DNA of 52,124 nt, from positions 1-52,124 of the forward strand of contig NZ_JAHKPD010000016.1 in assembly GCF_018860245.1 (NCBI RefSeq), in the 5' to 3' direction. The position numbers and the translations under genes were made by a program. The number at the start of each line of letters is the position of its first letter. Within the stretch, counting starts at the first letter, position 1. Below the pieces are notes generated by a model. It was given only the letters and a program-made list of their open reading frames with translations. It was not told the origin of the DNA and made no database searches. Below are positions 42,018 through 52,124 of the stretch, piece after piece. The stretch is from Pseudotamlana agarivorans (GTDB lineage Bacteria; Bacteroidota; Bacteroidia; Flavobacteriales; Flavobacteriaceae).

Positions 42018-44525
42018 CTAATCTATTTTTGCATTTTTTAAACGCAATGCATTAGAAATCACAGACACCGAGCTGAAGCTCATGGCCAAAGCAGCAATCA
42101 TGGGAGAAAGCAGAATTCCAAAAACCGGAAATAGGATACCTGCCGCAATAGGAACGCCAATCGCGTTATAGATGAGTGCAAAAAATAAATTCTGTTTGAT
42201 GTTACGCATGACTTTATCACTTAAATGTTTCGCTTTTAAAATACCATGCAAATCACCTTTTACAAGAGTAATCATGGCACTTTCAATGGCTACATTAGTT
42301 CCTGTGCCCATAGCAATACCCACATCACTTTGAGCTAAAGCAGGGGCATCGTTTATACCATCGCCAGCCACGGCCACGCTATTACCGTTATTCTGGAATT
42401 TTTTCACCTCGTTAAGTTTATCTTCCGGAAGCATGCTAGCTTTAAAATGAGTGATATTTAGCGCATTGGCTACAGCTTGTGCCGTTTTAAAATTATCTCC
42501 TGTGAGCATTACGACTTCAACACCGTTGTTTTGCAATGCTTTAATGGCTTTAGCGCTAGTATCTTTAATTTTATCTGAAATAACCACAAAACCCACAATT
42601 TCTTTATTGATCGCTAAAAACGACACGGTTTTGCCTTGTTTCTGAAATAAACCAGCCTTTTCTTCCATTTTGGAATCTAATGAAGCCCGTGCAAATGCCA
42701 TCATTTTAGGGTTACCTAAACTTATCTTTTCACCATGTATTATGGCTTCAACACCTTTACCGGTAACGGCTCTAAAAGCTTCAGTTTTTAAGGTTTCTAT
42801 CTGATGTGATTTGCCATATTTTACGGTAGCTTCAGCAAGTGGGTGTTCGCTATTTGTGTTCAGTGAAACGATGTACTGAAGCAGGTCTTTTTCAGAAAAA
42901 TCATTATTAAATGAACCAACAGTTTCTACTGTAGGCTTCCCTTGGGTAATGGTTCCTGTTTTATCTACAATAAGGGTATCGACCTGATGCATTTTTTCAA
43001 GAGCTTCGGCATTTTTTATTAGCACACCATTTTGAGCACCCTTACCCACACCTACCATCACAGACATTGGCGTTGCTAAACCAAGTGCACATGGGCAAGC
43101 AATAATTAAAACGGCAATGGCATTTACTAAAGCATAGACAAAAACGGGTTCTGGTCCCCAAATGGCCCAAGCCATGAAAGTTATTATGGAAATAAAAACA
43201 ACGACAGGCACAAAGTATCCCGAAACTTTATCGGCTAATTTTTGAATAGGTGCACGGCTTCGGCTCGCCTCATTAACCATGTGTATAATTTGAGACAGTA
43301 AAGTATCACTACCAACTTTTTGAGCTTTCATTAAAAAGGTTTGGTTGCCGTTTATGGTTCCGCTATTAACTTTATCCTTCGTGCTTTTGTTTACAGGAAT
43401 GGGTTCTCCGGTAATCATCGATTCGTCGATTGTAGTGGTTCCTTCAATAATAATACCATCAACAGGAATTTTGTCGCCTGGTTTTACTTTTAGAATATCG
43501 TTTAATTCAATTTTATCGATTGGCACTTCAACTTCTTCTTTGTTTACAATTTTAAGCGCCTTATTTGGTGCTAATTTTAGAAGTTCTTTAACCGCTTGAT
43601 TGGTTTTACTGTGTGCTCTGGCTTCTAATAATTGTCCGAACAAAACCAGCGTTAAAATAACGGTTGCCGCTTCAAAATAAACATGAACGACTCCGCTTTC
43701 GGTTTTAAACTGTGCAGGAAAAACATCAGGAAAAAACAAACCAAAAACACTAAACAACCAAGAAACACCTGCCCCAATTCCGATTAAGGTGAACATATTG
43801 AGGTTCCATGTTTTTATGCTCTTGTAGGCCCGTTCAAAAAATATCCAAGTGGCATAGAATACTACGGGAATGGAGAGTAGAAATTGTATCCAATTCCAAT
43901 ATTTTTGATTTAAAATAGTATATAGTGGATTCTTTGCAAGCATATCGCTCATGGCTATTAAAAAAATGGGTAGTGTAAATGCCACGGCTATTTTAAACTT
44001 TTTTAGCAGTTTAAGATATGTTTTTTCTTTAGAAGACAAATCAGCTACAACAGGCACTAAATCCATACCACAAATGGAACAATCTCCAGATTCATCTTTT
44101 AGAATTTCGGGGTGCATCGGGCAGGTCCACTGATTTATTGCACCTCCCGTTACGTTGTGTTGTTCGACCAAATCCATTCCACAAACCGGACAATCACCAG
44201 GTTTTTCGTAGGTTTTATAATCTTCACAATGCATTGGACAATAGTAAATGCCATTTCCAATACCTTTAGGTTTTTCCGTTTTTTTAGAATGGCTCGAACA
44301 ACAGCTTTTTTCATTTATATTGTGAATGGTATAATTACTACCATCATCAAATAAAGCTTTTTGAAAAATTTCAAGAGGAACATGTGTTTTCATTTCGATA
44401 GAAGCTTCAGCTGCTTTTAAGTTAACTACCACTTTAATTACTCCTGATACTTCAGAAAGTATTTTTTCAACATGACTTCGGCAACCGTTACAGGACATAC
44501 CTTGAATTTTATAAATGTGTTTCAT
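42018..44525 (-). CDS. Copper-type P1B ATPase with HMA and two heavy-metal-binding (HMBD) domains
   Basis: The product has 835 residues. The order is an HMA domain (IQGMSCNGCRSHVEKIL, residues about 7-24), a Cys pair with His (KSCCSSHSKK), and two HMBD zinc-finger-like modules (YYCPMHCEDYKTYEKPGDCP then VCGMDL, and WTCPMHPEILKDESGDCSIC then GMDL). Then follow eight membrane helices with the transport motif ACPCALGLATP, the phosphorylation loop VDKTGTITQGKPT, SEHPLAEA and GDGINDAPALAQSD. It exports Cu+ (or Ag+) from the cytoplasm. A small gene ends 7 nt upstream, so the two are likely co-transcribed. Confidence 0.95.
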   Translation of the reverse strand: MKHIYKIQGMSCNGCRSHVEKILSEVSGVIKVVVNLKAAEASIEMKTHVPLEIFQKALFDDGSNYTIHNINEKSCCSSHSKKTEKPKGIGNGIYYCPMHCEDYKTYEKPGDCPVCGMDLVEQHNVTGGAINQWTCPMHPEILKDESGDCSICGMDLVPVVADLSSKEKTYLKLLKKFKIAVAFTLPIFLIAMSDMLAKNPLYTILNQKYWNWIQFLLSIPVVFYATWIFFERAYKSIKTWNLNMFTLIGIGAGVSWLFSVFGLFFPDVFPAQFKTESGVVHVYFEAATVILTLVLFGQLLEARAHSKTNQAVKELLKLAPNKALKIVNKEEVEVPIDKIELNDILKVKPGDKIPVDGIIIEGTTTIDESMITGEPIPVNKSTKDKVNSGTINGNQTFLMKAQKVGSDTLLSQIIHMVNEASRSRAPIQKLADKVSGYFVPVVVFISIITFMAWAIWGPEPVFVYALVNAIAVLIIACPCALGLATPMSVMVGVGKGAQNGVLIKNAEALEKMHQVDTLIVDKTGTITQGKPTVETVGSFNNDFSEKDLLQYIVSLNTNSEHPLAEATVKYGKSHQIETLKTEAFRAVTGKGVEAIIHGEKISLGNPKMMAFARASLDSKMEEKAGLFQKQGKTVSFLAINKEIVGFVVISDKIKDTSAKAIKALQNNGVEVVMLTGDNFKTAQAVANALNITHFKASMLPEDKLNEVKKFQNNGNSVAVAGDGINDAPALAQSDVGIAMGTGTNVAIESAMITLVKGDLHGILKAKHLSDKVMRNIKQNLFFALIYNAIGVPIAAGILFPVFGILLSPMIAALAMSFSSVSVISNALRLKNAKID

Positions 44526-44532
44526 ACGGTTA

Positions 44533-44931
44533 CTAAATTTTAGAATGTTCCATATAATCCTGCCATAGGATTAATACGTATTTGTTTTTATGGTTTTCGA
44601 CAATTTTTAAGAAACCAAATTCATATACAAAAAGATAAACTTCACCTTTCTGATTTTTCCAATAGTGGGTAAAATAGTTAGGATTAAAGCCTTTTTCTAG
44701 TAAAAGTTCGGATCTTAAAGTTACTTTGCCCCCTTTATTATACTCTTTTAATATTTTTCTATTGAGTTTTAACTGATTGTCTACCTTATTATAAAAACGT
44801 TCGGGTTGTACTTTCGCTTGCTGATATTGAAAGGCACTTTTACATTGTACATCACAGAATTTTTTATCCGTTCTTCCGGTTAATTCACTTTTACAGTATA
44901 AACAATTTGTATAAAACCTCATGATTTTCAT
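44533..44931 (-). CDS. Small zinc-ribbon protein of unknown function, upstream of the copper ATPase
   Basis: The product has 132 residues. An N-terminal four-cysteine ribbon (NCLYCKSELTGRTDKKFCDV then QCKSAF, about residues 9-33) is followed by a helical stretch (NRKILKEYNKGGKVTLRSEL) and a strand-rich end (GEVYLFVYEFGFLKIVENHK). An alternative start at 44922 would drop three residues. It ends 7 nt before the P-ATPase start, so a role in copper or thiol chemistry is conceivable; such ribbon proteins also occur alone in flavobacteria. Function not recognised. Confidence 0.75.
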   Translation of the reverse strand: MKIMRFYTNCLYCKSELTGRTDKKFCDVQCKSAFQYQQAKVQPERFYNKVDNQLKLNRKILKEYNKGGKVTLRSELLLEKGFNPNYFTHYWKNQKGEVYLFVYEFGFLKIVENHKNKYVLILWQDYMEHSKI

Positions 44932-45016
44932 TTTAACAGTATAATATACGAATCTTATTCACATAAACCACTGTTAAGTTATATATGACATTTATTATTG
45001 TATAAATATTAAAATT

Positions 45017-46147
45017 ATGGAAAAAGGCAGGAGTATTACCTTAAAACACCTCTTAATTAAAAATATAAAGCAAATTGGTTTACAGTTTACTACCGACAAA
45101 GTTATTCAGGCCCTTGTAAAAGAGCTACCGGATGTAAAATGGAGTAAAGAATTTAATATGGCATACCTTATAAATACACCTGAAAACCTGGATTTAATTT
45201 TTAAAAAATTTAAAAGCGTCGCTTGGGTGAATAGTCATTACTTTTTTGACCATAAACCTATAAATGAATACAGTGAACCTATGGATATTACTTGGTTTAG
45301 AAATCGGGCGCTCCCTCAAGTTTACCGGCTGTGCCCTACTTCCTATTTAGATAAGCTTGAAATTAAGAAATATGCTAACAACACCATTAAATCTTATATC
45401 ATCGCTTTTGAATATTTTATAAACTATTACCCAGATAAGGAACTTATAGCCATTAATGAAAATGATGTTAGGCAATATATTTTAAAATTAGTTCAGCTTG
45501 GAAAATCTGATTCTTATATAAATATGTCCATAAATAGCATTAAATTTTACTATGAATCGGTTCTTGGTATGCCCAATCGGTTTTATAAAATTGAACGCCC
45601 TAGGAAGCAAAAGAAATTACCCAAAGTACTTTCTAAGGAAGCGGTTTTAAGGATTATCGCTAATACAAACAACTTGAAACACAAGTGTATTGTAAGTTTA
45701 TTGTATTCCTCTGGCATACGTCGAAATGAGTTAGTTAATTTAAAAATTTCAGACATTGATAGTTCACGGATGTTAATCCGTATTGAATCTGCGAAAGGAA
45801 AAAAAGATCGTTTTACTCTATTATCTCATAATTTACTAAACGATTTACGTGATTATTACAAGCAATGGAAACCAAGAACCTACATTATTGAAGGTATGTA
45901 TGGTAATAAGTATTCGGCACAAAGTGTAGGAAGGGTTGTTACGAATGCCGGAAAAAAGGCTAAAATCCCAATAACTGTAACTCCTCACATGCTGAGGCAT
46001 AGTTTTGCTACTCACCTTTTAGAGGATGGCGTTGATTTACGACAAATTCAGGTCCTACTGGGTCATAGCTCTACTAAAACCACAGAAATCTACACACATG
46101 TGGCTACAACTGCTTTCAAACAAATTAAGAATCCGCTAGACAATTGA
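45017..46147 (+). CDS. Tyrosine recombinase (XerC/D-like) heading a cassette array
   Basis: The product has 376 residues. The catalytic set is complete: R235 in SSGIRRNELVNL, K262/K263 in SAKGKKDRFTLL, H324-R327 in TPHMLRHSFATHLLEDGVDL, H350 in LLGHSSTKTT and Y359 in EIYTHV. A SAM-like core-binding domain covers about 110-195. The first 90 residues (QALVKELPDVKWSKEFNMAY, FKSVAWVNSHYFF) are an extension of unknown role. The C-terminus FKQIKNPLDN resembles that of integron integrases, but the segment between K262 and H324 is short and appears to lack the extra helix of IntI. It is on the same strand as, and directly before, the cassettes at 46282-52124, so I infer that it recombines their attC-like sites. 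Confidence 0.9.
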   Translation: MEKGRSITLKHLLIKNIKQIGLQFTTDKVIQALVKELPDVKWSKEFNMAYLINTPENLDLIFKKFKSVAWVNSHYFFDHKPINEYSEPMDITWFRNRALPQVYRLCPTSYLDKLEIKKYANNTIKSYIIAFEYFINYYPDKELIAINENDVRQYILKLVQLGKSDSYINMSINSIKFYYESVLGMPNRFYKIERPRKQKKLPKVLSKEAVLRIIANTNNLKHKCIVSLLYSSGIRRNELVNLKISDIDSSRMLIRIESAKGKKDRFTLLSHNLLNDLRDYYKQWKPRTYIIEGMYGNKYSAQSVGRVVTNAGKKAKIPITVTPHMLRHSFATHLLEDGVDLRQIQVLLGHSSTKTTEIYTHVATTAFKQIKNPLDN

Positions 46148-46251
46148 AAAAATTCAAAACCATGTTATAAATTTTAACTTTATTTAATTTTTCTAAAAAA
46201 ACATATAAAACATATATACCACATACAAGACATATCCCTTATATTTGGAAA

Positions 46252-46276
46252 TATATAGAACATAATGTTCTATATA
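46252..46276. other. Candidate attI/core site: 25-bp palindrome between recombinase and first cassette
   Basis: The arms TATATAGAACAT and ATGTTCTATATA surround one central A, which gives an AAC-n5-GTT inverted pair like a simple tyrosine-recombinase core. The first cassette junction (GTT at 46282) is 15 bp downstream of its GTT. It could instead be an operator or the recombinase gene's terminator. Confidence 0.45.
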
Positions 46277-46308
46277 CTATTGTTGTGTTTCATACTGACC
46301 AGCCGCAT

Positions 46309-46372
46309 ATTTTAGCACTTTCGGTTTTTGCCAACGCACAGTTCCAACGCTAAAAACCAAAAGAGCTAAAAT
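46309..46372. repeat. Hairpin at the left side of the R-M operon
   Basis: The two 21-nt arms (46309-46329 and 46352-46372) pair with two mismatches. The loop carries GCCAACGCACAGTTCCAACG. The word CCAACGCTAAAA (46344-46355) recurs at 48633-48644, to the right of the operon. Confidence 0.65.
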
Positions 46373-46387
46373 TTCCCAACGCTCGAA

Positions 46388-46418
46388 TTGAATATATCGA
46401 TAAAAAGATTTAGATTTG
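46388..46418 (+). promoter_or_regulatory. Promoter of the R-M operon inside cassette 1
   Basis: TTG at 46388-46390, a 20-bp spacer and TAGATTTG at 46411-46418 fit the Bacteroidota consensus. It lies just before the regulator gene, so the cassette's genes do not depend on a promoter outside it. Confidence 0.75.
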
Positions 46419-46437
46419 TCAAAAAATGACAAGTCTT

Positions 46438-46758
46438 ATGAAAACCACATTTGGAGAATACATCCGACTTTTAAGAAACGAAAACGAATTGACTTTAACT
46501 CAACTTGCAGCTAAACTAAATTTAGATTCTGCAAATTTGAGTAAAATCGAAAATGGAAAACGAGATTTTGACGAAAAACGCTTGCCAAAACTTGCGAAAA
46601 TCTTCAAACTGAATCTCACAGAATTGCGCAATGAATATGTGACTGACCAAATTGGCAAGCATATTTACGAAACAAATTGCACAAAACAACTTTTACAAGT
46701 TGCAGAGGAAAAAGCAGAATATCGAAGAACACTTAATAAATCACTTCAAACACAATAA
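46438..46758 (+). CDS. XRE-family HTH regulator, likely controller of the R-M system
   Basis: The product has 106 residues from the ATG at 46438 (MKTTFGEYIRLLRNENELTL); an in-frame ATG at 46426 would add four residues but leaves almost no leader after the promoter. The HTH covers about residues 5-62: LTQLAAKLNLDSANLSKIEN then GKRDFDEKRLPKLAKIFKLN. A helical tail (TKQLLQVAEEKAEYRRTLNK) follows. It ends 3 nt before the methyltransferase gene. Small XRE proteins ahead of type II R-M genes often act as C proteins that delay endonuclease expression; that role is inferred. Confidence 0.85.
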   Translation: MKTTFGEYIRLLRNENELTLTQLAAKLNLDSANLSKIENGKRDFDEKRLPKLAKIFKLNLTELRNEYVTDQIGKHIYETNCTKQLLQVAEEKAEYRRTLNKSLQTQ

Positions 46759-46761
46759 AAT

Positions 46762-47799
46762 ATGAAAATAGTATCTTTCTTCGCAGGAGCTGGCGGACTT
46801 GATTTAGGCTTTCAGCAAGCTGGTTTTAATGTTATTTGGGCAAACGAATATGACAAAGAAATTTGGGAAACTTATGAAAAAAATCACCCAAACACAATAC
46901 TTGACAAAAGAAGTATTGTAAATATACCAGCTGATGAAGTTCCAGAATGTGATGGAATAATTGGAGGTCCACCTTGCCAAAGTTGGAGTGAAGCTGGAGC
47001 AGCAAGAGGAATTAAAGATAAGAGAGGTCAGTTATTTTATGACTTCATAAGAATATTAGAAGCTAAACAACCTAAATTCTTTTTAGCGGAAAATGTTAGT
47101 GGAATGTTGATTTCTAAACACACAGAAGCTTTAGAAGGAATTAAAGAACTTTTTAGAAACGCAGGAATAGGATACGAACTTTCTTTTCAAATGCTTAACG
47201 CATCTGATTATAATGTTCCACAAGACCGAAAAAGAGTTTTCTTTATTGGAATTAGAAAAGATTTGAATTTTAAATACCAATTCCCAACTGAAACTTTTCC
47301 AAAAATACCGCTTGAAAATGTTATATCTGATTTGCAAGAAGGTGTTTTACCAGCTTTAGAATACAACAATACCAATGGAGATAATTGTGTAGTTCCAAAT
47401 CACGAATATATGATTGGAAGTTTTTCTACAATTTTTATGTCAAGAAACAGAGTAAGAAGTTGGGATGAACAATCTTATACAATTCAAGCAGGCGGAAGAC
47501 ACGCACCTATTCATCCGCAAGCACCAAAAATGAAATTCATAGAAAAAAATAAGAGAATTTTTGTTCCAGGAAAAGAACATTTATATAGAAGGTTAAGCGT
47601 TAGGGAATGTGCAAGAATTCAAACTTTTCCGAATGACTTTATTTTCCATTATAAGAAAGTCGCAGCAGGTTACAAAATGATTGGAAACGCTGTTCCTGTA
47701 AATCTTGCAAAATTTTTAGCAAAAAGTATAAAAACACAGATTGAACAAAATACCATTAAACAGAACAAGGAACAAAGAGAATTAGTCGAAACAATATGA
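46762..47799 (+). CDS. DNA cytosine-5 methyltransferase, HaeIII-like (GGCC predicted)
   Basis: The product has 345 residues with the ten m5C motifs: SAM-binding [19 protein letters not shown] (I), catalytic [19 protein letters not shown] (IV, Cys in PCQ), [11 protein letters not shown] (VI), [11 protein letters not shown] (VIII) and [17 protein letters not shown] (X). The target region [20 protein letters not shown] and [12 protein letters not shown] closely resemble what I remember of M.HaeIII, so GGCC is the predicted target. It protects host DNA from the adjacent endonuclease. The stop codon overlaps the endonuclease ATG by 4 nt. Confidence 0.93.
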
Positions 47800-48623
47800 G
47801 TAACATTTTAGAAGCTTTAGTAAATATAGTTGAGAATAAAGACTACGAGATTAAGGAATACACAATAGGTGGTAACAGAGCCCAAAATATGGGAGAAGCC
47901 TTGGAAGAATACATCTTTGATGCTTTTAGTAACTCTTTTGATATTGATGATGACGAAACGCGAAGAAATAAGCACAGCGAAGTATTTTCTTTTTTAGGAG
48001 CAAAGAATAAAATTCCTGATGCAATATTAAAAAATGGAGATGCTTTGGAAGTAAAAAAGGCTACTTCCGAATCTTCTATTCAGTTGAATAGTTCCTATCC
48101 AAAACATTCATTGAAAGCAACAGATACAAGAATACAATCTTCTGCGTTGACTTGTGAAGAAATAAAATGGGAAGAGAAAGAAATGCTTTATTGTTTTGGA
48201 TATATCCCAAGTGGAGCCAAACATTTAAAATCCGTGTGGTTTGTATATGGTCGAATTTATTGTGATTTACAGGAAGTCTATGAAGAAATCATTGATGATA
48301 TAAAAGCCAATTTAGATGATGATTACACAGGAAATGAATTGGGCGGAGCAAAAGGTGTAGATAGTTTAAAAATAACAACATTAAGAGTAAGAGGTATGTG
48401 GGTTATCAAGCATCCTCAAAAAGTTTATTCAAAGTTGACCAAAGATTGGGGAAACAATGACTTTGAAGTAAAAGCGTTAATTCCAAAAAATATATTTGAT
48501 AATTTTCCTCAAAAATCAAAAGACAAATTAAATGCAAGTGTTCTCAATATTGAGGAAATTGAAGTTACTGACCCAACAAACAGAGCTAAAACTTTAAATT
48601 GTTTTTTTATTTACTATAAATAG
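47796..48623 (+). CDS. Type II restriction endonuclease, NgoPII-like (GGCC predicted)
   Basis: The product has 275 residues. The start [13 protein letters not shown] followed by [20 protein letters not shown] is typical of the NgoPII restriction-enzyme family. A PD-(D/E)XK core is visible as [20 protein letters not shown] (about residues 72-91). NgoPII cuts GGCC, consistent with the HaeIII-like methyltransferase next to it. The ATG overlaps the methyltransferase stop (ATGA), so translation is coupled. No frameshift or truncation is visible, so the system is probably active. Confidence 0.88.
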
Positions 48624-48646
48624 AGGAATAAGCCAACGCTAAAAGC

Positions 48647-48705
48647 CATACACATTTGCAATTCGCTTCAGCCACCACACAAGCCAAAAATTGCAAAAGA
48701 GTATG
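48647..48705. repeat. Hairpin at the right side of the R-M operon
   Basis: The arms 48647-48663 and 48689-48705 (CATACACATTTGCAATT and a complement with two mismatches) are flanked by GCCAACGCTA on the left (48632) and again on the right (48711). The region from 48624 to the attC-like site at 48746 has no ORF. Confidence 0.65.
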
Positions 48706-48745
48706 TCTTTGCCAACGCTAGCAAGTTTGCGGAAAAAAAGTACGA

Positions 48746-48880
48746 AAACACAACAACGTATATAAAAAATAGCGGTTTTAGTGCTTAAACGAAAGTAAGT
48801 AAATATAAAAAAAGCCTGTGTTAAACCGAAAAGTTCGTGTGTAAAATCCGCTACTTTTCATATACAAGACCGTTATGTGC
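48746..48880. other. attC-like site 1
   Basis: AAC at 48752-48754 and GTT at 48872-48874 enclose arms 48758-48775 and 48848-48865 that pair over 18 bp with two mismatches (GTATATAAAAAATAGCGG). The context is CAACAACG on the left and GACCGTTA on the right. Confidence 0.7.
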
Positions 48881-49463
48881 AACGTATCCACTCAGCTGGA
48901 AAAGCATCTAATTCCAAAATTATAACGGAAAAAAAATGCGCAATCGGACTAACTTACTCAACCGATTTCGGACTTTAACGATACGAAACTGTTGCGGCGG
49001 ACTGATGCTCAGAACGAAAAATCTGTATAGAAGTTAGTTGTTTAAGAATGTGTTTATTAAAATGTGATCACTCTGCTGGTTTCTGACCAAAACAATACGC
49101 AACTGTGATGTGGTATTGATTAGCTAGACGGCATATCTTTGTATAATAAAAGTAAAAAAGAACGTGAAAATCACTCAATTTGCTTACTCAAGCGGCTTCT
49201 GACCATGGCAATACGCAACTGTTACGGCGGACTGACATTCTGGGCGGCAAATTTTGGCGGAATTTAAGTGGTTTAAAGCATAAAAACTGCATTATAAAAC
49301 GCAAAAAAACATCAATTTTCTCAACACAAAAACGCGGCACATAACAAAATGTAAAATCCATTGCTTACTTTAGCGTTAAGTTAATGTGTAGTACTTCTAT
49401 TCAACTTCGGATTTCCAAACGGAAATCCTACTTTCTTAGTCGCAACGCACCTTACATGAGACC
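48872..49463 (+). mobile_element. Gene cassette 2 (no ORF)
   Basis: The cassette begins with GTTATGTGC (48872-48880). The exact reverse complement GCACATAAC is at 49337-49345, opening its attC-like site. It is 592 bp long, and no ORF of useful length is present on either strand. The body instead carries a threefold non-coding repeat. Confidence 0.65.
48951..49250. repeat. Threefold degenerate repeat in the ORF-less cassette
   Basis: Copies lie near 48951-49010, 49066-49120 and 49181-49250. They share the words TTACTCAA.CGG.TTC.GAC, AATACG.AACTGTTRCGG and CGGACTGA. The second copy is the most diverged. No coding frame is conserved across the copies. Confidence 0.6.
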
Positions 49464-49472
49464 GTTAACCAT
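49337..49472. other. attC-like site 2
   Basis: AAC at 49343-49345 and GTT at 49464-49466. The outer arms 49349-49364 and 49442-49457 match at 12 of 16 positions (ATGTAAAATCCATTGC). The inner hairpin GGATTTCC-AAAC-GGAAATCC is at 49409-49428. The right end GACCGTTA is the same as in site 1. Confidence 0.65.
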
Positions 49473-50436
49473 AATTTTCCAATAAATGCGAGAATATAAT
49501 ACTTACGCAAATAAGCAACTCGAAAAATTATCTAAAACTCAAGATAAGTTCATTGCAAAGTTTAATACTAATTCGTATTCAAGTTGGTTTTATGACCAAG
49601 AGACTGAATTACTTCGTTTATACAATGAGGATATAGATGAAGTATTTTTTAAATATATCCCTGTTGGAACCTATTCGCCAATATCAAATTCGTGGATGTG
49701 GAGTTGGCATAATGAAGGTTCTATTGAAGAGCATAAATATGAGACACTTAAAATTAAGAAATTTGGTAAGAAACATGGATTTGATTTTTTAACAAATGGC
49801 TTAATAAATTGTGAAAAATCTGAATGTTGGAAATTGACGGCAATCAGTAAAAATCTAATTGGCGGAATTGGGGTTTATTCTACTAATTCTAAAGATTTAC
49901 AAAAATATTTTATTATTGTTAAGGTTTATAAGGACATTAACTCAATGGAAGTTCAGAGAATGAAACAAAAAAAAGTAGATTGCGGAATTCATGGGTTTCG
50001 ACGAACTGCCTTTGTTTGTCAGCATTTAGACCTTGAAAACCCAAAGGGATTTGAGGAAGCTTTTGAAGCGGTTAAAGGAATGGATTTAGATGAGAGTGAA
50101 GATTTTGCGGCTTGGTGTAGTGAATGTGAAGAATATAGATTGTCGGAAGATGGATGGAATGAAGAATCTGAGAAATTTGCTGATATTAAATTGGTTTGCG
50201 AAGAATGTTATTTTGAGTTGAAAGAGTTTAATAAAAAATAAACTATGGCTAACAATGCCTATACTTAATACGGGTTTGGTGTTTAATTCAAAAGTTAGTC
50301 TGTATTTGCAAAGTCCGCCAAATCTTTTGATTTGGCTTTATAACTAAAAAAAGATAAAACAAAATAAAAAGATTTGGCTAAGTGTTTAAACGGAAATTAA
50401 TTCCTTTTAATTCCCGTACTAAGCATAGCCGAGAAC
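49464..50436 (+). mobile_element. Gene cassette 3
   Basis: The cassette begins with GTTAACCATAA (49464). CTATGGCTAAC at 50243-50253 is its reverse complement at 9 of 11 positions. It is 973 bp long, with one ORF starting 22 nt after the boundary. Confidence 0.65.
49486..50241 (+). CDS. Cassette-borne protein with a DUF6882-like N-terminal and Cys-rich C-terminal part
   Basis: The product has 251 residues and is soluble. The N-terminal half (YIPVGTYSPISNSWMWSWHN, then EHKYETLKIKKFGKKHGFDF) is like the uncharacterised DUF6882 family, which I recall only loosely. The C-terminal half carries likely zinc ligands: CGIHGFRRTAFVCQH, AWCSECEEY and LVCEECYFELKEF. It ends 2 nt before the attC-like site, as cassette genes usually do. 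Function unknown. Confidence 0.78.
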   Translation: MREYNTYANKQLEKLSKTQDKFIAKFNTNSYSSWFYDQETELLRLYNEDIDEVFFKYIPVGTYSPISNSWMWSWHNEGSIEEHKYETLKIKKFGKKHGFDFLTNGLINCEKSECWKLTAISKNLIGGIGVYSTNSKDLQKYFIIVKVYKDINSMEVQRMKQKKVDCGIHGFRRTAFVCQHLDLENPKGFEEAFEAVKGMDLDESEDFAAWCSECEEYRLSEDGWNEESEKFADIKLVCEECYFELKEFNKK

Positions 50437-50447
50437 GTTGTGCATAA
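50243..50447. other. attC-like site 3
   Basis: AAC at 50251-50253 and GTT at 50437-50439. The arms 50259-50274 (CTATACTTAATACGGG) and 50413-50428 pair with two mismatches. An inner hairpin, GCCAAATCTTTTGATTTGGC, is at 50317-50336. It is closely similar over its full length to site 4. Confidence 0.75.
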
Positions 50448-51268
50448 TTATGAAAATAGTACTAAAATCAATCTTTCTGCTAATTATAAGCTTCTCGTGT
50501 TTTAGCCAAAACAACGGAAAAGAAAACCTGAATTTAGTTTTTTATAGTGATTGTTCTGATAAAATCATAACGCCAGAGTTTGATATAGATATTGTTCCTC
50601 AATCGGAAAATGTCAAAATACTGACTTATTACATTGAGCGAGGAGATTGGATTTCCCAAAACACTATTACTATCGATTTAAGAAAAAATGACACAATTAG
50701 AATCCCAAAAATTCTCTTTGGTGGAGGAAATGAATTACATAGCCAACGTTGGACTTATTTAAACTGCAATAAAATTTGCGAAGGAAAAGAAATAGATTCT
50801 AACTCTAACGGAAATAAAAGACTTGAAGGCGTTTTTGAGAACGGAAAACCATCTGAAATCAAGTTTTTTAGAGAGAACGGAACTTTGGAATCTCAAGAAA
50901 TTTATAAGCTTGGAACTTTAAATAAAACGAGAGTTAATTATTTCGACGAAAAAGGAATTTTAACAGAATATGAAATTCACAAAAACCGAAAGAAAAAAAC
51001 AATAATTCAGACATTTGACAAAAATCACAAACAGACAAATAAAGAAGTTCAACATTATTATATTGAATAAACTAACTATGTACAACAAAGCCTATACTTA
51101 ATACGGGTTTGGCGCTTAAGTCAAAGGTTAGTTTGTATTTACAAAGTCCGCCAAATCTTTTGATTTGGCTTTATTACTAAAAAACATAAAACAAAATAAA
51201 AAGATTTGGCTGAGTGTTTAAACGGAAATTAATTACTTTTAATTCCCGCACTAAGCATAGCCGAGAAC
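50437..51268 (+). mobile_element. Gene cassette 4
   Basis: The cassette begins with GTTGTGCATA (50437). TATGTACAAC at 51077-51086 is the reverse complement at 9 of 10 positions. It is 832 bp long, and its single ORF starts 13 nt inside the boundary. Confidence 0.7.
50450..51070 (+). CDS. Cassette-borne secreted protein with MORN/YwqK-like repeats
   Basis: The product has 206 residues from the ATG at 50450, where a signal peptide begins (MKIVLKSIFLLIISFSCFSQ). An upstream TTG at 50438 lies on the cassette boundary and is rejected. The C-terminal third has MORN-variant repeats (GVFENGKPSEIKFFRENGTL, then ESQEIYKLGTLNKTRVNYFD) as in YwqK-type proteins. It is likely exported to the periplasm or surface. 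It ends 6 nt before the attC-like site. Confidence 0.78.
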   Translation: MKIVLKSIFLLIISFSCFSQNNGKENLNLVFYSDCSDKIITPEFDIDIVPQSENVKILTYYIERGDWISQNTITIDLRKNDTIRIPKILFGGGNELHSQRWTYLNCNKICEGKEIDSNSNGNKRLEGVFENGKPSEIKFFRENGTLESQEIYKLGTLNKTRVNYFDEKGILTEYEIHKNRKKKTIIQTFDKNHKQTNKEVQHYYIE

Positions 51269-51278
51269 GTTGGCAATA
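51077..51278. other. attC-like site 4
   Basis: AAC at 51084-51086 and GTT at 51269-51271. The arms 51092-51107 and 51245-51260 pair, and the inner hairpin GCCAAATC / GATTTGGC is at 51150-51169. The sequence is nearly the same as site 3 although the adjoining genes are unrelated. Confidence 0.75.
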
Positions 51279-52107
51279 ATTTAGAGAACAACTAACCTTA
51301 TAAGAGAAAAAATCTGTATATGGATGTAATAAAAGCGCATAGAGAATTATTTGAGATTATAAAACCTGAAATCTATAAGTTTGGCTTTGATACTTCAGAT
51401 TATCAACCTCATTTTTGTTCTTTAGACTTTAAGAAAAAAAAGAATAAAGTAATCAACCACATAACTTTACAATTTTACAATGATAGTCTCGGAATAAATG
51501 CTCTGCAAGGTCGTGTGATACTCAATGAAGTTAATGATATTTTGAGAAAATTTGTGGATTTGAAAGTCAACAGGGAATATGAGACCTTAAACAATTTTGA
51601 ATTCAAGAACCTTATACAAAAGGATATCAAAAAGCTTAATTCGATAAGTAAATATAAAAACAAGACAGACTACTCGTTTGATATTTTAGAACATATTGAA
51701 AAGGTAGTTATTCCTTTTTTTAATTTTTACCCAGACATGCAGACAATTAATCATAATATTCTTAACACAGTTCCCATCAAAGATTACCCAGATTGGATAC
51801 ATGGGCAATCAACCTTAAAAATCTTAATTATAATGCGACTTTGTAATAATCCGAATTTTGATTCATATCGAAAAAACAAGGAGAAAGAATATATAGCTTT
51901 TGTCAATAGAGATTCTACTATGTGGCAACCTGCTTATGATACATTTCTATCACTGATAAAGTATCTTAATGATTAAAAACTATTGCCAACAATATGTATA
52001 GTGCATAAGGGTTTCAGCGGTTTCCGAGTGTTTACGCTCGCCTCAAATTTGGTTGACAAACTGATAAGTTTGAGCACCGCAATCCCTTACGACACCATAC
52101 ATTAAAC
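51269..52107 (+). mobile_element. Gene cassette 5
   Basis: The cassette begins with GTTGGCAATA (51269). The exact reverse complement TATTGCCAAC is at 51981-51990 (10 of 10). It is 839 bp long with one ORF. A sixth cassette starts at 52108 (GTTGTAGTGC) and is cut by the window edge. Confidence 0.7.
51320..51976 (+). CDS. Cassette-borne protein of unknown function
   Basis: The product has 218 residues and is soluble with no signal peptide. The start MDVIKAHRELFEIIKPEIYK then FGFDTSDYQPHFCSLDF resembles DUF4304-like proteins. The remainder is helical (LEHIEKVVIPFFNFYPDMQT, LKILIIMRLCNNPNFDSYRK). It ends 4 nt before the cassette's AAC-side core box. Codon use is AT-rich like its neighbours. Function not recognised. 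Confidence 0.75.
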   Translation: MDVIKAHRELFEIIKPEIYKFGFDTSDYQPHFCSLDFKKKKNKVINHITLQFYNDSLGINALQGRVILNEVNDILRKFVDLKVNREYETLNNFEFKNLIQKDIKKLNSISKYKNKTDYSFDILEHIEKVVIPFFNFYPDMQTINHNILNTVPIKDYPDWIHGQSTLKILIIMRLCNNPNFDSYRKNKEKEYIAFVNRDSTMWQPAYDTFLSLIKYLND

Positions 52108-52117
52108 GTTGTAGTGC
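51981..52117. other. attC-like site 5
   Basis: AAC at 51988-51990 and GTT at 52108-52110. The arms 51995-52011 (TGTATAGTGCATAAGGG) and 52084-52101 pair imperfectly. An inner CTCAAA/TTTGAG pairing is also visible. The right end is AAACGTTG. Confidence 0.7.
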
Positions 52118-52124
52118 ATTTGAG

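Follow-up and report, generated by a model that had tools for sequence, protein, structure and literature searches.

An integron-like cassette array beside a Xer-type recombinase other than IntI in Pseudotamlana agarivorans

Described cassette systems and the array in Pseudotamlana agarivorans

In sedentary chromosomal integrons, which are found in Vibrio, Xanthomonas and other bacteria and whose features are partly general knowledge, a recombinase (IntI) and an adjoining attI site are accompanied by long one-strand arrays of cassettes with attC sites. Variation in these arrays is cassette-bounded at G/TT, end boxes are self-paired, the sites form imperfect hairpins and the bottom strand is favoured. 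The system described here resembles them in these respects, the bottom strand being favoured by folding prediction, whereas its recombinase falls outside the IntI clade, lacks the IntI-specific insert, carries an extra N-terminal domain and is transcribed toward attI, and a paired box of about 9–10 bp plus a conserved A.C opposition replaces RYYYAAC/GTTRRRY. The reverse integrons of Treponema possess intI according to a passage in PMC3607928, in contrast to the non-IntI recombinase found here. Fold and catalytic residues are shared with XerA, XerC, XerD and XerH but, unlike these, the gene in question adjoins a cassette array. Qi et al. (2023; PMC9892861) described integrons and clusters of attC sites borne by phages, including Polaribacter phage P12002L, and these are likewise similar in having attC sites and methyltransferase cassettes. 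However, their paper, which employs canonical integron models, lists P12002L as a cluster without integrase, whereas the phages considered here possess their own non-IntI recombinase and an attI junction, with genes facing against the site. For Bacteroidetes, a passage of the IntegronFinder 2.0 paper (PMC9024848) recounts an earlier survey giving only intI without cassettes, and cites one complete integron, that of Salinibacter. The present locus very probably represents an integron-like platform for cassette capture and shuffling that is run by a Xer-type recombinase other than IntI.

The window, i.e., the whole analysed stretch of 52,124 nucleotides, is an entire contig (C25), which means that the array is cut short where the assembly breaks. 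The recombinase gene (45017..46147, + strand) is followed by an attI-like palindrome and then by units with matching start and end boxes. An earlier note on this DNA had claimed five consecutive units with paired boxes, and all of these pairs are present. The units start with GTT at 46282, 48872, 49464, 50437 and 51269, and another, the sixth, begins at 52108; the ends, taken as the last base of AAC, lie at 48754, 49345, 50253, 51086 and 51990, the AAC-GTT distances of the five sites being 117, 118, 183, 182 and 117. Start and end tails of units 1 to 5 match at 6, 6, 6, 6 and 7 of 7 positions, and the summed match (31/35) is the single top score among all 120 start-end pairings (mean 16.8). 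By comparison, tails match at 6/7 or better in 34 of 8903 GTT/AAC pairs (0.4%) with a spacing of 150–3000 bases within 44001–52124, the true pairs included. AA follows AAC in all five sites, as had been stated, but the internal GTTs are preceded by ACC or AAC and not by the CCG or ACG given in the same note.

All cassettes lie on the + strand. Cassette 1 (46282..48871) combines an attC-like site with a type II restriction-modification system consisting of an HTH gene of the Cro/C1 type, the probable controller (46426..46758, PF01381), a C5 cytosine DNA methyltransferase (46762..47799, PF00145, 1.2e-99) and an NgoPII-type restriction endonuclease (47796..48623, PF09521, 8.2e-77); its site 1 extends from AAC to the next GTT (48752..48874). 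Cassette 2 (48872..49463; site 2, 49343..49466) has longest frames of 54–57 aa and no convincing gene. A DUF6882 protein is encoded at 49486–50241 in cassette 3 (49464..50436; site 3 of the long class, 50251..50439), while genes without assigned function are located at about 50438–51070 in cassette 4 (50437..51268; site 4, also long class, 51084..51271) and at 51320–51976 in cassette 5 (51269..52107; site 5, 51988..52110). Cassette 6 is cut by the contig end (52108..52124). Hence, the previously proposed unrelated same-strand genes exist in four of the five units, unit 2 being the exception.

The recombinase, its attI-like site and a candidate promoter

The cassette recombinase is a tyrosine recombinase of 376 aa, and its residues R235, K260, H324, R327, H350 and Y359, which we take to be the catalytic ones, are invariant across 15 aligned sequences. 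The IntI-specific insert (I2 region) is absent, as seen from the spacing between K and HxxRH, which amounts to 64 residues versus 106 in IntI; it is 64 in 21/21 members of subfamily A and 62–69 in 51 group B rows, compared to 106–107 in the 12 IntI measured. In passages of PMC8138268 and PMC7790495, this insert is considered essential for integron function. The IntI model TIGR02249 yields 188 bits on the window recombinase, below its cut-off of 265, while NF040815 gives 220.8 bits against a cut-off of 220, and among PDB structures it is matched best by XerA and the integron integrase 2a3v. All IntI rows form one clade with a support of 100 that contains no window-type row, while the trees neither establish the new family and IntI as sister groups nor, by the AU test (p 0.596), reject this. 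An origin independent of IntI is kept only within the more speculative reading given below, as a single clade uniting both is compatible with the AU test. Two further short tyrosine recombinases of the same genome (L001 and L002) are presumably XerC and XerD.

Structure models of the N-terminal domain (45017..45250, + strand) show a bbabbab arrangement which is perhaps HARP/XPB-DRD-like, a fold known to read branched DNA. With Pfam, the domain of the window copy matched TMP_N alone at chance level (E 0.24), and HARP appeared below cut-off in two of six N-termini (E about 0.002) and in two of 38 full proteins (E 0.011 or worse). No Foldseek match of the domain reached 0.001, an unrelated protein (E 0.081) ranking before XPB (E 0.098) and the SMARCAL1 HARP (E 0.39), and its sequence profile gave no convincing relative among solved structures. 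The similarity of the domain to HARP is, hence, weak.

Downstream of the recombinase, an attI-like inverted repeat with 12-bp arms around one base (46252..46276) precedes CTATT and the first GTT. Comparable inverted repeats with arms of 6–12 bp are found before the first GTT in 14/14 junction-bearing loci of subfamily A, versus 3–7 in shuffled controls. Among 62 recombinase loci, 39 have a GTT near the recombinase stop that pairs with the AAC tail of the first sites, in 33 of the 39 at a distance of 30–160 bp, and 23 are without such an attI junction; part of the junctions outside subfamily A may be due to chance. In the phage loci, the junction lies 36–51 bp from the recombinase start (5/5). 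At 46240..46247 (+ strand), the sequence TATATTTG is a candidate cassette promoter, fitting the Bacteroidota −7 element with the consensus TAnnTTTG. Of the 14 subfamily A loci having a junction, seven contain such an element in the 110 bp that precede the first GTT, and judging from these motifs the cassettes are perhaps transcribed from a promoter upstream of attI.

Cassette sites, strand asymmetry and movement

The tail had been described as specific to each unit, and this extends beyond the window: across 19 loci, adjacent sites reach a match of 6/7 in 56 of 79 cases, compared to 33 of 893 for non-adjacent ones, so that the paired boxes are far better than this control. Each cassette's GTT tail of about 6–7 variable bases is complemented before its own AAC, which makes sense if both ends meet, as in a circle. 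The cassettes have self-paired end boxes and boundaries at GTT, and the classical RYYYAAC/GTTRRRY consensus is present on both sides in 8 of 212 of them, substantiating the poor fit already remarked upon. Given these values, the missing insert and the position outside the IntI clade, the system is no canonical integron, although it appears to work like one; from the initial reading as integron cassettes, the integron-like organisation is retained but not the strict assignment.

Double-sided changes are found at 12/12 consensus stem pairs in 69 sites. Arm mismatches are predominantly of the A.C type (528 versus 54 of the G.T type in 256 sites), figures that refer to the new-type sites and for which canonical attC provided no counterpart, as the search with our own patterns at 12 IntI loci and R388 gave at most two canonical attC sites per strand. 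For 207 of 212 sites, better folding is predicted for the bottom strand than for the top strand. In five phage arrays, where the genes are opposed, the asymmetry still follows the site (50 versus 11) and the folding prediction favours the bottom strand in 20/20. Rfam has no family for the sites, and weak microRNA matches were taken as chance.

Judging from the sequences compared, cassettes move as units, breaking at GTT. Near-identical cassettes at different places (at least 97% identity) end at the next GTT downstream in 67 of 71 cases, and 4 of the 187 non-self cassette matches lie between genomes. Between genera, 8 loci match the start of window cassette 1, and in 5 of these the alignment begins with the first base of the cassette. 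Breakpoints at GTT between isolates, which the earlier note had named as a check, are seen in Polaribacter phage Freya: among seven isolates with identical integrases, four nested insertions begin precisely with GTT, at a distance of 46 bp from the start of the integrase, so that insertion at attI is observed for a distant relative of the window recombinase and not at the window's own locus. The integrase of Freya shares 32% identity with the window recombinase and lacks the N-terminal domain. A scripted search gave no tail match for two of the differences between isolates, of 842 bp and 2891 bp. We infer that the window recombinase is active in cassette recombination.

Distribution, rival explanations and proposed mechanism

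Carriers of the system are flavobacteria, other Bacteroidota and some phages. Paired cassettes are present downstream of 27 of the 41 recombinase relatives with at least 4 kb downstream and missing from the other 14. The longest arrays reach 58 kb, and of 262 cassettes possessing a frame of 60 aa, 252 have their longest frame on the array strand. Sites were detected in 78 of 91 genomes with the recombinase (13 being without) versus 61 of 205 genomes lacking it (odds 14, p 8e-20). They also occur in 49 of 146 genomes having neither recombinase nor IntI, hence either loose arrays exist or the site model is incompletely specific.

It might be argued that these are canonical cassettes whose mobility depends on a genuine IntI, encoded at another place in the genome or supplied in trans, as 84 of the 296 genomes from this phylum contain an IntI above the curated cut-off. 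Moreover, IntI1 is able to use one site of a Polaribacter phage: according to a passage in PMC9892861, P12002L_attC2 recombined with attI1 via the bottom strand, without top-strand recombinants. Phage P12002L carries sites of the new type, to none of which attC2 could be matched. However, the genome of P. agarivorans gave no TIGR02249 match among the seven of nine candidates scored, the arrays begin at the new recombinase, and in contrast to their association with the latter the sites are not associated with IntI (36 of 84 genomes with and 103 of 212 without IntI; odds 0.79, p 0.44), rendering this explanation highly improbable. Cassettes were found at 0 of 34 IntI loci, which is an unfair negative since at most of them 1.5 kb was available and canonical arrays extend from the opposite side. 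Scarcely credible is the alternative that dispersed hairpin repeats, REP- or terminator-like, have allowed gene blocks to be swapped by ordinary homologous recombination. The repeats are indeed abundant and related, and identical cassette ends flank different genes, but the breaks are at GTT and not within the repeat. Likewise, the cassette-specific complementarity of start and end, the orientation of cassettes (158 on the recombinase strand and 0 on the opposite one) and the Freya insertions at one place beside the integrase would be left unexplained.

Site-specific recombination between double-stranded sites in the manner of Xer or Cre, i.e., without a folded single strand, would suit a recombinase that resembles XerA and lacks the insert docking extrahelical bases in IntI, and also the palindromic attI-like sites. 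Nevertheless, the stems are long, conserved and covarying, and the strong top/bottom asymmetry tracks the site and not the gene, making this a rather unlikely mode. In the preferred integron-like mechanism, excision by the recombinase would yield a circular cassette, whose site would form a hairpin from its bottom strand; one exchange of strands at GTT with a double-stranded attI would then insert the cassette beside the recombinase. The A.C oppositions of the top strand, corresponding to G.T wobbles on the bottom strand, would determine which strand is used. Tentatively, and possible rather than probable, this could be a second, separately evolved integron recombination, in which a Xer-type enzyme without I2 acts on folded single-stranded sites and A.C oppositions, with their bottom-strand G.T wobbles, replace the extrahelical bases in strand choice. 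The N-terminal HARP/XPB-DRD-like domain of the bacterial enzymes may then serve for reading, and the system would be shared with phages for swapping small cassettes, with DNA methyltransferases predominating in one instance.

If the integron-like reading is right, cassette arrays are common in the family of P. agarivorans and beyond: the further sites sought in relatives exist, with 68 of 99 genomes bearing them, the genome itself counted in. These arrays would probably have been missed because protein and site search models rest on IntI and classical attC; a search of open-access literature found no report of the system. In addition, the accepted rule that the I2 insert enables recombination of single-stranded sites, as expressed in a passage of PMC7790495, becomes testable. 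Phage Freya and its Polaribacter host would constitute a cultured natural system in which cassette gain is already visible. The phage integrase, interpreted in a passage of PMC8776804 as a sign of possible temperate life, would be re-read as a cassette recombinase.

The cassettes carry accessory genes, part of them for phage defence. The cargo is mixed without a single theme, as the 130 of 243 distinct cassette proteins scanned with Pfam and PADLOC show 95 Pfam families, the commonest having four members. Searches for plasmids led to replicons of Flammeovirga and Persicobacter; the Flammeovirga stretch shows one site at threshold 24, and Persicobacter pPP2 is a long array.

The array of the window and its junction with the recombinase gene

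The window represents an entire contig of the 3.73 Mb genome of Pseudotamlana agarivorans, and its array region starts with the gene of the 376-aa tyrosine recombinase (45017-46147, forward strand). Downstream of this gene, a TATATTTG motif (46240-46247) and an inverted repeat whose arms measure 12 bp (46252-46276) are found, followed by five bases and the first GTT (46282). From there, the array comprises five complete units and a sixth one cut off at the contig end, each bearing GTT plus a tail at its start and the complement of the same unit's tail ahead of AAC at its end. Self-pairing of these start and end boxes, as claimed in the earlier note, was corroborated, the true pairing being the best among all 120 pairings. 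Unit 1 carries an HTH gene together with genes for a C5 methyltransferase and an NgoPII-type endonuclease, unit 3 encodes a DUF6882 protein, and the genes of units 4 and 5 belong to no Pfam family. Unit 2 (48872-49463) shows no clear gene and may be non-coding or decayed; several imperfect internal repeats are visible in it by eye. Further cassettes reside on three small contigs (C13, C14, and C16; 4-7 kb) of the same genome, as expected where an assembly is interrupted by repeats.

When searching up to 900 bp from the recombinase stop codon, a junction GTT paired with the AAC tail of an early site was found at 39 of 62 loci, some of these junctions perhaps occurring by chance, as each locus was tested with several GTTs and as many as four sites; 33 of the 39 are located 30-160 bp from the stop, and the same search revealed no attI junction at the remaining 23 loci. 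In subfamily A of the new recombinase family, all 14 loci with a junction possess an inverted repeat within the 45 bases before it, with arms of 6-12 bp (3-7 in shuffles). One palindrome is common to four of five loci from the same genus and differs by one base in the fifth (L041). Most other attI-like repeats follow the pattern ATAAAC...GTTTAT, with middles that vary yet stay palindromic, and those of the loci L059 and L050 contain a spacer.

Arrays in relatives and the associated recombinase

The expectation that further sites of this type exist in relatives was borne out among 99 close relatives, 58 of which, own genome included, encode a recombinase relative (E 1e-40): sites were present in 57 of these 58 and in 11 of the 41 genomes without it. 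A purpose-written site finder (AAC, 2-4 bases, stem, loop, stem, 4-7 bases, GTT) gave a background of 0 to 2 sites per shuffled locus at threshold 24. At 19 loci chosen in view of earlier results, tails matched at six of seven positions in 56 of 79 pairs of adjacent sites versus 33 of 893 non-adjacent pairs, the control pairs being drawn from these same loci.

Among 80 named loci obtained with the recombinase profile, many of them outside Bacteroidota, eight (Winogradskyella, Seonamhaeicola, Aquiflexum, Flavobacterium, Algoriphagus, Algibacter, and two loci without genus name) bear 33 paired cassettes, every one of them on the recombinase strand. Paired cassettes were found at 27 of 41 distinct recombinases scoring at least 180 bits against the window's and having at least 4 kb downstream, in total 158, without exception on the strand of the recombinase (0 opposite). 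The closest subfamily contributes 12 of 12 and the remainder 15 of 29, the latter including two from an archaeon and a Clostridium relative. Below 180 bits, pairs were present at only one of 35 recombinases, a copy with an internal stop (L177). Among complete chromosomes, one genome possesses arrays of 58 kb and 43 kb, and a second genome one of at least 55 kb. Plasmid pPP2 of Persicobacter psychrovividus (L056, 352805-372946) carries about 25 consecutive sites of the window type, seven of which share one repeated 173-174-bp version.

In a survey of 296 genomes of the phylum, with the new recombinase called at E 1e-80 or better, sites according to the R1 model were found in 78 of 91 genomes with this recombinase versus 61 of 205 without; with respect to IntI, they were present in 36 of 84 genomes carrying it and in 103 of 212 lacking it. 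Divided by class, sites occur in 54 of 66 genomes with the recombinase only, 12 of 59 with IntI only, 24 of 25 with both and 49 of 146 with neither; scoring was limited to 11 or 35 candidates, so that per-genome site counts are minimum values. True IntI is frequent across the phylum, exceeding the cut-off in 84 of the 296 genomes, but 83 of these fall outside the window's class.

The window recombinase is not an IntI: it scores 188 against TIGR02249, below the cut-off of 265, and in subfamily A 64 residues separate the conserved lysine from HxxRH, versus 106 in IntI. One study notes for its integron-like recombinase subgroup that some members do not conserve the insert, which it calls essential for integron function (PMC8138268). 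Phylogenetically, IntI forms a separate clade (support 100) and the new family one side of a branch with a support of 82-85 (not starred); the two may be sister groups. Modeled as a structure (pLDDT 85, pTM 0.64), the recombinase of the window best matches XerA and the integron integrase. The N-terminal domain (45017-45250 in the window) shows weak HARP/XPB-like signals, mostly in group B of the family, and the phage recombinases lack this domain.

Strand asymmetry of the sites in bacteria and phages

The poor fit to the classical integron boxes stated in the earlier note holds, only 8 of 212 cassettes conforming. In paired cassettes, base choice at tail positions 3-6 is almost free and complementarity is kept, positions 1-6 being, however, selected for by the pair criterion, which required five of the first six positions to match. 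Position 8, outside this criterion, combines A at the start with C at the end in 84 of 109 cassettes and, in a larger set, in 176 of 212. The inner stem is supported at all 12 of its pairs by changes on both sides (69 sites). In 256 distinct sites, arm mismatches of the top strand are of the A.C type in 528 and of the G.T type in 54 cases, and A.C oppositions turn into G.T wobbles on the bottom strand. With DNA parameters, folding of the circle junction is predicted to be better for its bottom strand in 207 of 212 cases.

Within 80 viral contigs encoding distant recombinase relatives, five (L257, L261, L262, L269, and L280) together carry 20 paired cassettes. These lie opposite in strand to the recombinase gene, whose start codon is 36-51 bp away from the attI junction; two more viral loci show one pair each on the recombinase strand. 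Phage status is based on IMG/VR and neighboring genes, among them one for a head maturation protease in L269 and one for an RNA ligase in L261. The longest frame opposes the site in 20 of 20 phage cassettes and runs in the same direction in 252 of 262 bacterial ones, yet the asymmetry stays with the site (A.C 50, G.T 11; folding predicted to be better for the bottom strand in 20 of 20), which distinguishes a feature of recombination from one of transcription. The phage arrays are small and accompanied by a recombinase of their own, and their cassettes mostly span 250-990 bp; one stretch of 3148 bp may contain undetected sites. DNA methyltransferases account for six of the ten frames next to the recombinase in L257 (393-7908), hence this phage may exchange anti-restriction genes as cassettes.

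In the open-access literature, subscription journals and preprints being outside the scope, no description of this cassette system was found. In one published study, IntI1 is shown to use one site of Polaribacter phage P12002L via the bottom strand, with no top-strand recombinants (PMC9892861). This phage possesses sites of the window type, the surrounding annotated genes lying on the other strand, and the IntI1-tested site could not be matched to any of them.

Movement of cassettes between arrays and genomes

All-against-all comparison of 348 cassettes resulted in 187 non-self matches, only four of them between genomes, as 18 of 22 labeled cross-genome by the script connect two contigs of a single genome. 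At 97% identity or more (n = 71), 67 matches stop +2 to +8 from the next GTT, and both ends are sharp in 49. Two arrays of one genome share a 1428-bp match of 100% identity, which stops at most five bases from each border.

A natural experiment is provided by Polaribacter phage Freya (L333-L341), whose ten isolates have seven different lengths; one isolate per length was compared near the integrase. The integrase is identical in all seven and, outward from its start, 46 bp up to a GTT are common to all, followed by divergence, except for Freya_8 and Freya_10, which are alike across the 3244 bp compared. Freya_10 corresponds to Freya_9 plus 307 bp, Freya_6 to Freya_5 plus 472 bp and Freya_2 to Freya_1 plus 842 bp, while Freya_9 has 2891 bp extra, then the entire compared Freya_5 sequence. 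All four nested insertions start with GTT and are directly followed by GTT, with the remaining compared sequence identical. Matching tails are present in the 307-bp and 472-bp pieces; the script found none in the 842-bp and 2891-bp pieces. As the Freya enzyme is 32% identical to the window recombinase (263 aligned columns), the isolates demonstrate that such a system moves cassettes, not activity of the window's copy. In the main text of the Freya paper, integron and cassette are not mentioned, and the integrase is taken to hint that the phage may be temperate (PMC8776804).

Cassette 1 of the window aligned from its first base at five of eight start-matching loci, between genera and with differing neighbors. 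At L231, the HTH and methyltransferase genes recur with a different third gene, and L232 to L234 retain the cassette ends with other genes inside. Judged from these alignments, cassette 1 appears to be a cassette shell with exchangeable payload, the genes inside being partly or wholly different across genera. Its first approximately 106 bases (46282-46387) and a stretch before its site (48627-48719) are common to L231-L239 from other genera.
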